Assembly (NCBI RefSeq): GCF_000003605.2
Contig: NW_003124894.1
Span: 56,511 to 82,209, forward strand
Source: Saccoglossus kowalevskii
Lineage: Eukaryota; Hemichordata; Enteropneusta; Harrimaniidae
Direction of reading: 5' to 3'
Length of the DNA: 25,699 nucleotides
This document shows, in pieces, positions 19,701 to 22,472 of this stretch. A program made the translations under genes and the position numbers. The notes under the pieces are model-generated. The model made no database searches and was not told the origin of the DNA. It saw only the letters and a program-made list of their open reading frames with translations. Each line of letters opens with the position of its first letter. Positions within the stretch are counted from its first letter, which is position 1.

Positions 19701-22472
19701 TCATAAACTCGTCCTGTTTCACCAAATTTAAACAAAAAAAGTTTATAAATTAGCACATTCAACATTATTCACTATTTGAAATTGTACGATGAGCAAAAAG
19801 AATATTCCGGCATGTACAGTAGTATGCGTAAAATAATAAATGCAACAGCTAAGGTATTCACATGATATCCGTATTAACAGTTTCTTGCCAATTGCCCGAC
19901 ATCACCGAGCACTTGTGATTGAAGATCTTATTTCAATAAATCAAATCGAAACCCCACAACAGCTAGCTATAAGTGTATTTAACGTAAACTCCTGTAATGA
20001 ACCCGCTCTGAGCTGTGTTGTCGGCAATGTCAAAGCAGACGCGATTATCACAATTCCAAATATACGGTCAAAAATCTAGAAAAAATACCAACGTATACAT
20101 AGTACAGAGAAGTTATCTACTGCATTCTGAAATTGTGATTCTCCCTGTTTAATACTTTAAATTACAGACGAAGCTTGGCTAAGTGAGACTCTAGGCTATG
20201 TCTTCGTCGGGGAATCGTGTGGTGAGCCAATACGATCGGATGAAATTGGTTTTGATATTGAGAATATTATGAGAAGTTGCACAGAAAACAATGACAGTGG
20301 AATAGCAGGTCGCCTTATTACAGTTCAGTTAACTGATGCAACAACGTGTCTTAATTTGTGCGAAATCGAAGCATTTGCAGGTGAGTTAACACATACTCTA
20401 AAATACATTTTTAATAGTCACACAATAGCCACACAGATGTTCGAACCTGAGTATTTTGGGCACATATTAAAAGCACCACGTGCAATTTATATGTTGTTTA
20501 AATTTCGGAAATGAGTAACCCATATCAGCTTAGAAATTAGGCATTCTCAAAGATAAACCTATGACATGATATGATAGGATAGGATAGGATAGGATAGGAT
20601 AGGATAGGATAGGATAGGATAGGATAGGATAGGATAGGATAGGATAGGATAGGATAGGATAGGATAGGATAGGATAGGATAGGATAGGATATGTGAACTT
20701 CACATATATCAAACTTTCAATTAATTTCGATATGTTGTATTTAATTTAACAGAGGTTCTCGGTCAGCTGGAGAATGTAGCTCTTGGTAAATATATTTACT
20801 CCAGCAGTAAGATATATGGTGGCGCCGCATCTAATGCCGTCGATGGCGATAAACATTCCTCTTATTTTGTCACACCGAAAACATGCCTTCACACAAAGAA
20901 AGAATTTGAACCGTATGCTGTGATTGATCTAGGTGAAGAATTCCATATAAAAGAAGTTAACATCACCAATCGAGTTGACGGTCAAACTTGTAAGTCTCTC
21001 AGATATAATATATTCGCACATGTCAAGTAGCTTTCTGGATTATGGGTTCATTGCACCGAATCAGGTTAGCCAACAAATTTGTCTGAAAGCAAAGGTAACA
21101 TCGCCTATTACACCCTCCGGTCATGCATAAAATTAAGATGTATAATGTATGAGATTTCAATATACTGGTATCTGTCAATCTACATATACCAATATGTTAT
21201 TATACATGGAACACGCGGCTTATTTGATCGTACAGTACGAGTAAAACATTACCGTAATAACTCATAACATACGAACTCTTTATGACCACTTATCAACCCC
21301 GCAAATTGAGCAATTGGTATGATCTCGCTGGTGTTCAACTGTACTGGAAAATCAATCCAAAATAAAAAAAAAAAAAAACGTTATTCTACAACTTTCGCCT
21401 GGACAACCCATTAATCGCGCAAATGTATCCGAACAAAACAGAGGCATGTTGTTTCAGACCAATTTAACACTTCCCGCAATCATTACTAAACAATTTTAAT
21501 AAAAGTCTTAATAAGTTCCGGTAATAAAATTTGCTCTGTTCTGTTTTGCGTTGCCATATTCCATCTAGTGTCACTGTTAGTTAAGATCCCTTCATTAGCT
21601 CCAGGGTATACATATGGTATAATGATATGGAATGACGTTTTACAGGGAAACGATTATTTAATGGCGAAGTTATCATAGGTGACTATTCTGCTAAAACGTG
21701 TACTCCCATAGAACCACAATCAGATGACTACATTGATTTTGACTGTGGAATTTCTGGCGTCCGGGGACGCATATTAAGACTGCAACACAATGATGGAGTC
21801 ACATTGCCAACTAATAAATGTACCGTTAACGTTTATGTCAATAGTAAGTGATTTGTTATACTTACTGTATTCATTCTAACTGTTCCAGTAACTGTGTCAT
21901 AATAATGTATGCTAAACGTGGCAATAGCTGTAACTCTCGATTTTTATTTAATTAAACTTTTCCTGCGTCGTCAGAGCTAATACGTATCGGCCATCGCCGA
22001 ACACTGAAATAATGACGACTGAAAGTTTCTTTTGAAAAAAAAAAAAAAACGCAAAAAAAAGTAATATTTCTCCGATTTCGAAAACCATCAGCGTTCATCG
22101 ACACGCTTTTAGTTCATGCAAAATTAGCATAACTTGACAGATCATTGTACGTGTAGTTGCGCAAAATCATTATATCTCAGTCGTGTTTATATTATTTGGA
22201 TATGTGATGAAAAGGTTATGACTTATGTGAATTATGGTCTAGTATTTTCTACGAAACAAATGCAAGTGGATAATACATGACGTCACTCATATCAACCAGC
22301 TCGACGAACAAGCGTTGCCAGGTGATGTCCCAATAAGGTCAATCACGTCACGTTACAAGAGGGGCGTTAGGACAGACATAGCTTTAACTTTGCACGTGAT
22401 GTTTTTCTGTTTTCAGCTGAGATCACCGCCGACGGGCTGTTGAAAGGTGGGACAAACGCCGCGGTCTGGTAG
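10694..22472 (+). CDS. Gene B: secreted protein with two F-type lectin domains (16 exons, 891 aa)
   Basis: Exons: 10694-10760, 13529-13677, 14290-14358, 14666-14771, 15112-15793, 16174-16360, 16556-16739, 16844-16864, 17487-17565, 17837-17880, 17988-18188, 18407-18589, 20168-20380, 20753-20989, 21646-21843, 22417-22472. Their total, 2676 nt, is a multiple of three. Residues 1-22 form a signal peptide. Residues 23 to about 596 are the orphan region shared with gene A, with an Asp-box at 565-572. Residues 597-728 are F-type lectin domain 1, with fucose-binding residues lost. Residues 729-873 are domain 2, with the H775, R802, D804, K809 signature intact. An 18-residue tail ends at TAG. The product is probably secreted, since there is no membrane helix after the signal peptide. 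Domain 2 should bind terminal fucose, by family knowledge. Physiological role unknown; pathogen or gamete recognition is inference. UTRs and expression cannot be judged. Confidence 0.85.
10761..13528 (+). other. Gene B intron 1
   Basis: A 2768-bp intron separates the signal peptide from the mature protein, as is common for secreted proteins. It contains the long TAAA tract. The short open frames in it (12390-12665, 10740-11079 minus) have no recognisable content. I see nothing else. Confidence 0.65.
11258..11494. repeat. TAAA tetranucleotide microsatellite, about 236 bp
   Basis: Nearly pure TAAA repeat, with a single three-base unit near 11390-11392 as the only interruption, so two long perfect runs. 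It should be highly length-variable between individuals. Confidence 0.95.
13529..13677 (+). CDS. Gene B exon 2
   Basis: Acceptor TTTTTTCAG, donor GTGAAT; phase 1 in, phase 0 out. Encodes residues 23-72, the start of the mature protein, with the N27-G-S sequon. Only two residues differ from gene A (Phe to Tyr and His to Tyr). Confidence 0.88.
14290..14358 (+). CDS. Gene B exon 3
   Basis: Phase 0 at both ends, residues 73-95. Reads FLQDTPTFTYFVLIGSDWLEDSS against FLQDAPRLMYFVLTGSVWLEVSS in gene A: seven replacements in 23 residues. Confidence 0.82.
14666..14771 (+). CDS. Gene B exon 4
   Basis: Residues 96-130, phase 0 to 1, acceptor AAATTACAG and donor GTAAGT. It completes the first beta-sandwich-like segment, ending EGSINAVIS. 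Sequon N106-Y-S. Confidence 0.87.
15112..15793 (+). CDS. Gene B exon 5, large central exon
   Basis: 682 nt, the same length as in gene A; residues 131-357. Acceptor CATATCTAG, donor GG|GTAAAT. Two strand-rich halves are joined near SVTSGSVDNIENQ. Two cysteines (I-P-C-D and E-C-I-D) sit in the most divergent patch. A minus-strand open frame across it (15137-15433) is only the complement of this exon. Confidence 0.92.
16174..16360 (+). CDS. Gene B exon 6
   Basis: Residues 359-420, phase 2 to 0, acceptor CTTCAACAG and donor GTAAAG. Opens GDHIEICINVSHT; contains EEMYAVNSSINF, conserved in both copies. Confidence 0.87.
16556..16739 (+). CDS. Gene B exon 7
   Basis: Residues 421-481, phase 0 to 1, acceptor CTACATAG and donor GTGAGT. 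Opens IGTLTFSTKAEICFNIVVD and ends IQYNIIG. Last long segment of the orphan beta-rich region. Confidence 0.87.
16844..16864 (+). CDS. Gene B exon 8, 21-nt microexon
   Basis: Phase 1 at both ends between TTTATTTTCAG and GTAAGA. Encodes GEPQSLP (first codon split). Length and phase are kept from gene A although five of seven residues differ, which suggests a linker. Confidence 0.72.
17487..17565 (+). CDS. Gene B exon 9
   Basis: Residues 489-514, acceptor CAATTCGAAG, donor GTAAGT, phase 1 to 2. Contains P-G-S-Y-F-E and L-I-C-G-P-S. It is 3 nt longer than the gene A exon, by one codon in the D-G-G-Q turn. Confidence 0.77.
17837..17880 (+). CDS. Gene B exon 10
   Basis: 44 nt, phase 2 to 1, acceptor TATTGTAG and donor GTAGGT. 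Encodes NGKCALGFSNFMWM, the same Cys-bearing segment as in gene A. Confidence 0.77.
17988..18188 (+). CDS. Gene B exon 11: Asp-box-like segment
   Basis: Residues 530-596, phase 1 at both ends, donor GTACGT. Contains S565-E-D567-K-G569-L-S571-W572, an exact match to the Asp-box pattern S-x-D-x-G-x-[ST]-W found in sialidase/BNR beta-hairpins. A single copy does not make a propeller, so the motif may only mark a similar hairpin. The exon ends just before the lectin cassette. Confidence 0.85.
18407..18589 (+). CDS. Gene B exon 12: F-type lectin domain 1, first half
   Basis: Residues 597-657. D-D-W-W-R-V-D-L-G-A-N-Y is the hallmark central strand of fucolectin-type F5/8C domains. The ligand positions are changed: N628, N655 and T657 replace His, Arg and Asp. 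The N-terminal NVALG-type strand is not evident. Phase 1 at both ends; donor GTAGGT. The open frame runs on into the intron by chance to 18900. Confidence 0.83.
18590..20167 (+). other. Gene B intron 12
   Basis: A 1578-bp intron inside lectin domain 1. Its first third (about 18780-19180) is less AT-rich and has nested inverted repeats, AGCCCT..AGGGCT around GGGGA..TCCCC (18970-19006). It may be a fragment of an unrecognised mobile element. The rest shows nothing I can name. Confidence 0.5.
20168..20380 (+). CDS. Gene B exon 13: F-type lectin domain 1, second half
   Basis: Residues 658-728, phase 1 at both ends. It ends TTCLNLCEIEAFA, the typical closing motif of fucolectins (L-C-E-x-E-x-[FY]), and has the G-Y-V-F-V-G strand and S-C..R-S-C cysteines expected in the fold. 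L662 stands where the ligand Lys/Arg should be. Confidence 0.85.
20576..20690. repeat. AGGAT pentanucleotide microsatellite, 23 perfect units
   Basis: 115 bp of uninterrupted AGGAT, ending 62 bp before the exon 14 acceptor. A minus-strand open frame of repeated ILSYP is its artefact. Confidence 0.97.
20753..20989 (+). CDS. Gene B exon 14: F-type lectin domain 2, first half
   Basis: Residues 729-807. E-N-V-A-L-G-K and N-A-V-D-G-D match the start of fucolectins. H775 and, 26 residues later, R802-V-D804 are the ligand residues. A-V-I-D-L-G-E replaces WWRVDLG. Phase 1 at both ends; donor GTAAGT. Confidence 0.9.
21646..21843 (+). CDS. Gene B exon 15: F-type lectin domain 2, second half
   Basis: Residues 808-873, acceptor CGTTTTACAG. 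W808-K809 completes R-x-D-x4-K across the splice junction. G-E-V-I-I-G-D, the F-D-C-G strand and V-R-G-R-I-L-R-L match the C-terminal half of the fold. It ends KCTVNVYVN instead of the LCEVEVY type. Phase 1 at both ends. Confidence 0.9.
22417..22472 (+). CDS. Gene B exon 16: last exon and stop
   Basis: Acceptor TTTTTCTGTTTTCAG is strong. The split codon A|CT continues EITADGLLKGGTNAAVW to TAG at 22470-22472. Past the stop the same frame still looks protein-like (KNGTKN..TTGGTNITCP), and the homologous gene A stretch reads VWLKDGK with no stop. The TAG may therefore have cut off a former C-terminal domain. Confidence 0.7.

Follow-up and report, generated by a model that had tools for sequence, protein, structure and literature searches.

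The plus strand of a 25,699-nucleotide stretch of Saccoglossus kowalevskii DNA (contig NW_003124894.1, positions 56,511 to 82,209; the window, below) carries a gene predicted to end in two tandem F-type lectin domains, D1 and D2. D2 keeps the ligand positions of the family and would bind fucose through H775, R802 and R810, while D1 would be a sister domain that lost the site and now serves another role. We give this reading a probability of about 0.65. The window has the character of intron-bearing animal DNA, and coding regions were predicted from the DNA alone: five terminal exons are joined via GT-AG sites, and the four introns between them are all in phase 1. The product would be a mosaic protein, probably extracellular, with the lectin pair at its carboxy terminus. 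Residue numbers presuppose that exon 12 starts at 18407. An acceptor at 18344, in the same phase, would add 21 to each; because the 18407 start drops from D1 an "NV" segment (18344-18406) that resembles one in other F-type domains, we prefer the start at 18344, which retains it.

An earlier note on this DNA had proposed that D2 carries the F-type ligand motif, and the spacing it gave, H775-x26-R802-x-D804-x4-K809, is present in the translated sequence. The pattern H-x26-R-x-D-x4-K arose in 153 of 200000 shuffles of D2, and chance alone was rejected as its source; across the window's six unspliced frames there is a single occurrence, the one at D2. The published motif is printed as H-x24 in PMC5712786; the eel segment, counted by eye, has 26 residues in this interval, agreeing with the x26 of the earlier note rather than with the printed value. 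D2 passes the cut-off of Pfam PF22633 (38.9 bits against 27.8; E value 1.3e-9), and its best solved match is the striped-bass lectin FBP32 (phmmer, E = 7.6e-16). Up to an E value of 1, its solved relatives comprise six distinct sequences: FBP32, two Sm-hPAF sequences, the two fucolectin-related proteins 2j22 and 2j1r, and the eel lectin. The h2DGx cation motif is present as AVDGD, with DG at 759-760. D2 holds four cysteines (C773, C826, C841 and C866), and the fold disulfides of the eel reference are C50-C146 and C108-C124. In all three alignment modes C773 lined up with eel Cys50 and C866 with a bass cysteine.

We next consider which residue completes the triad. D1 and D2 were aligned in three MAFFT modes with five solved segments (eel, bass N-domain, bass C-domain, 2j22 and 2j1r); a second round in three modes used longer stretches of the bass lectin and included a Persicobacter domain, giving six alignments. 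In all six, every comparator has arginine in the column of eel Arg86, where D2 has R810 and D1 has S663. R810 was likewise equivalent to Arg86 in phmmer alignments of five chains (six domains), and it precedes [IL]-x-[GN], as the arginine does in all five solved segments. The earlier note had named K809 as the third ligand residue. Its x4 spacing to that residue holds, and the published motif, as given in section 8 of PMC5712786, permits either arginine or lysine at the last place; a triad of H775, R802 and K809 nevertheless seems improbable to us, given the occupancy of the Arg86 column by R810. The K809 column contains E, E, K, Q and Q in the first alignment set, and in the second K809 sits in an insertion filled only by a Persicobacter serine. 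The distance from the first to the last arginine, counted by eye, is also variable: it is +6 in the bass C-domain, +7 in eel, bass N-domain, 2j22 and 2j1r, and +8 in D2, the two Sm-hPAF sequences and Persicobacter. Section 16 of PMC5712786 states that the S. mitis domain retains the His-Arg-Arg triad; by our own reading, given the loop length, its last arginine must be the one at +8. Because the loop ahead of the last arginine varies in length, H775/R802/R810 is probably the triad, rather than one ending in K809. The same variation carries a lesson of method: a published spacing motif may select the wrong third residue, and strand register should guide how it is read. In this arrangement H775, R802 and R810 would most likely be the residues with which D2 grips terminal L-fucose in the canonical pocket, and D804 would hold R802.

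The motif was also said to be completed across the junction of exons 14 and 15, and this is borne out: the W808 codon (T|GG) is split by the intron, and both K809 and R810 lie in exon 15. The span assigned to D2 in the earlier note, 20753..21843, likewise runs exactly from the start of exon 14 to the end of exon 15. We tried 40 donor/acceptor pairs at this junction. Exon 15 was open in six, and the motif appeared only with 20990/21646; the alternative pairs, five of the six open ones, lose the pattern and were rejected. An alternative donor at 20981 would retain K-R in a shorter loop. The motif pattern alone is no proof of the 20990/21646 splice, because read-through of the intron after exon 14 also yields a lysine (...GQTCK).

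In D1, the residues at the spacing of the D2 motif are N628, N655, T657 and L662 (H775 minus N628 is 147), as the earlier note had listed them. The alignments support part of this assignment. N655 and T657 occupy the Arg79 and Asp81 columns in all six, but the Arg86 place belongs to S663, also in six of six, and N628 falls at the His52 place in only one. That place is otherwise taken by Y629 (one alignment), C627 (one) or a gap (three), and never by histidine; since the assignment shifts between alignments, we withdrew Y629 as the settled counterpart of His52. No alignment places a triad residue in D1, and the domain has no h2DGx cation motif, nor a single DG. Its reading frame is nevertheless open and its core recognisable, with WWRVDLG kept. 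FBP32 is again the best solved match (E = 1.1e-7), and D1 and D2 match each other by BLAST (E = 1.3e-6, 23% identity). Thus the contrast drawn in the earlier note stands for the residues themselves, kept in D2 and absent from D1, and a non-binding D1 is the predicted consequence. We propose that D1 is an old sister of D2 from which both the basic triad and the cation motif have disappeared, and that it now acts as a scaffold, spacer or protein-contact domain and not as a fucose site. It might instead bind a different glycan through a changed pocket, making the protein bispecific; the open frame and recognisable core are compatible with this, and PMC5712786, where it discusses off-motif domains, allows for altered specificity as well as loss. 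This seems rather unlikely, however, because in all six alignments D1 lacks a basic residue in the Arg79 and Arg86 columns and a histidine at the His52 place, and with the cation motif gone it offers no positive sign of a sugar site.

Several observations weigh against the proposed pair of one fucose-binding and one secondarily silenced domain. In D2, C826 and C841 fell into bass cysteine columns in none of three modes and match by order only; PYAVIDL replaces the PWWRVDL of the family; two additional residues precede CxH; and the vicinal pair Cys82-Cys83, common in the family but not defining, is absent, its loop reading G805-Q806-T807-W808. The "full signature" of the earlier note is on this last count slightly too strong, although the histidine, the Arg-x-Asp and the last basic residue are kept. 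In D1, both matched Pfam models score below their cut-offs (PF22633, 20.8 against 27.8 bits; the other model, 16.1 against 28.2). The domain holds six cysteines; C722 is in the bass cysteine column in three of three modes, C627 reaches the eel Cys50 column in only one of six alignments, and the other four, C675 and C695 among them, align with no cysteine. The view that D1 keeps all four fold cysteines was withdrawn after realignment. Because of the low Pfam scores and poor cysteine matches, the old disulfides of D1 are uncertain, and D1 could derive from a different F5/8-type-C domain in which the site never existed.

The absence of WW and of the vicinal cysteines from D2 also bears on a further explanation, in which fucose is bound by neither domain: the pair would be a module for structure or for binding proteins or lipids, and the motif in D2 a leftover. 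A possible co-option of such folds for phospholipid binding is mentioned in PMC5712786. We consider this unlikely, since D2 retains the motif places and the cation motif together, and the adjacent D1 has lost them. The vicinal cysteines contact fucose in the eel lectin. PMC5712786 describes Phe220 at their place in the bass C-domain, with fucose still bound, and the loss of the vicinal pair from one domain of most tandem F-type lectins. By analogy, W808 might fill this role in D2, possibly substituting for the apolar contact that the vicinal disulfide provides in eel.

With Arg79 replaced by Asn and Asp81 by Thr, D1 has gained an N-glycosylation sequon, N655-C656-T657 (18580-18588), precisely where the Arg-x-Asp is missing. 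Shuffling D1 put a sequon at this very position in 2542 of 200000 cases, and sequons overall are about as frequent as expected (2 seen, 1.8 expected). It is conceivable, though very improbable, that the former pocket of D1 is sealed and glycosylated, and that this glycan, were it fucosylated, could be bound by the D2 of an adjacent molecule. Cysteines 656, in the ligand loop, and 718, near the end of the domain, could bridge over the pocket, a pairing without alignment support. If this were true, the domain without a site would bear what the functional domain binds. The sealed-pocket idea was framed after the fact.

A phase-1 intron interrupts each domain in the corresponding loop, the two positions lying within three codons of each other; the D1 intron splits codon D658, three codons earlier than the D2 intron relative to the Arg79 place. 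The two introns look inherited from a common two-exon domain, to judge from their phase and position. That each domain has an intron in its ligand loop recalls, by analogy, the sperm bindin of the oyster Crassostrea gigas, which has a mid-domain intron, tandem F-lectin repeats with some isoforms lacking the triad, and microsatellites beside its exons (PMC5712786, section 12). Five of ten isoforms are off-motif according to a figure legend in PMC5712786, which also attributes a mixing of domain halves to recombination within the mid-domain intron and places GA microsatellites directly before the lectin exons. In contrast to oyster bindin, there is here just one GATAG array, before D2, and there are several uncharacterised upstream exons.

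Motif-less F-type domains, unequal tandem pairs and a mid-domain intron are thus already known (PMC5712786), and this gene would add one more tandem F-type lectin whose domains differ, the fucose site being kept in one and absent from the next. Striped-bass MsaFBP32 (PDB 3cqo), the best solved match of both D1 and D2, is also a tandem pair of F-type domains whose sites are unequal, one lacking vicinal cysteines (PMC5712786). However, both bass domains keep the triad, and the bass introns lie at the Glu123-Cys124 turn rather than in the ligand loop (PMC5712786, section 8). In rotifer triple-domain F-type lectins, one tandem domain is similarly off-signature beside recognisable neighbours (PMC8878817, section 2.6), but there are three domains and the off-signature one is the third (PMC8878817). 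Drosophila CG9095 is another mosaic protein with an F-type domain, in which two triad residues are replaced (PMC5712786, sections 8 and 13); its partners as described there include CCP and C-type lectin domains, whereas the upstream exons tested here pass no Pfam cut-off. Compared with the eel agglutinin AAA (PDB 1k12), D2 keeps the H, R, D and R ligand columns, but its ligand loop is one residue longer and has no vicinal disulfide. A literature search found no publication on this gene, a weak negative that says little.

Positions of the described features in the window
Feature	Position	Strand	Details
Upstream exon blocks of the gene, model incomplete	13531..18190	+	conserved with the copy at 286-6423
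Largest upstream exon	15114..15794	+	227-residue frame; unmatched in Pfam, NCBIfam and PDB sequences
Exon 12, first half of D1	18344..18589	+	donor GTAGGT, phase 1; C627-N628-Y629 (His52 region), N655 (Arg79 place), T657 (Asp81 place)
Exon 13, second half of D1	20168..20380	+	acceptor TTACAG, donor GTGAGT, phase 1; L662, S663 (Arg86 place), cysteines 675, 695, 718, 722
GATAG x 24.8 tandem repeat	20568..20691	+	intronic, about 60 bases ahead of exon 14
Exon 14, first half of D2	20753..20989	+	acceptor TAACAG, donor GTAAGT; AVDGD cation motif, C773, H775, R802, D804
H775 codon	20890..20892	+	eel His52 column
R802-V803-D804	20971..20979	+	eel Arg79 and Asp81 columns; R802 20971-20973, D804 20977-20979
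W808 codon (T|GG)	20989 / 21646-21647	+	split by intron
Exon 15, second half of D2	21646..21843	+	acceptor TTACAG, donor GTAAGT; end of split W808 codon, K809, R810, C826, C841, C866
K809-R810	21648..21653	+	K809 21648-21650, R810 21651-21653; R810 the likely eel Arg86 equivalent
Probable last exon	22417..22471	+	18-residue tail, TAG stop; by eye without a transmembrane stretch

The upstream exons are duplicated in tandem, at 286-6423 and 13520-18194. The two copies of the largest exon align over 714 bases at 88% identity, with nonsynonymous (dN) and synonymous (dS) divergences of 0.10 and 0.26 over 681 bases by the NG86 method. All eight frames submitted to Pfam, six from upstream exons of the gene and two from the left copy, stayed under the cut-off. 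Downstream of the left copy, within the window, tblastn detected no F-type domain, a weak test in which D1 against D2 itself reached only E = 0.23-0.40. When 871 frames were scanned with a profile made from D1, D2 and six comparators, the four D1/D2 exons were recovered, as they must be by construction, and no other match was better than E = 0.11.

Further searches covered databases and possible relatives elsewhere. None of the six proteins matched NCBIfam, Rfam gave no match, and ARAGORN found no tRNA. Phages yielded no match to D2; viral contigs searched with a bass segment gave 25 pattern matches, none of them confirmed. The plasmid search returned one record, Persicobacter (E = 2e-3), where a protein (L001:601-996) has an F-type domain that shows both the vicinal cysteines and an arginine at +8.

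Two other kinds of repeat were observed in the window. A TAAA x 59.5 array at 11258-11494 produces long minus-strand open frames that are apparently meaningless. Short dispersed repeats with 78-89% identity, at 1442-1563, 22649-22815 and 23162-23249, are perhaps copies of an element resembling a short interspersed nuclear element.

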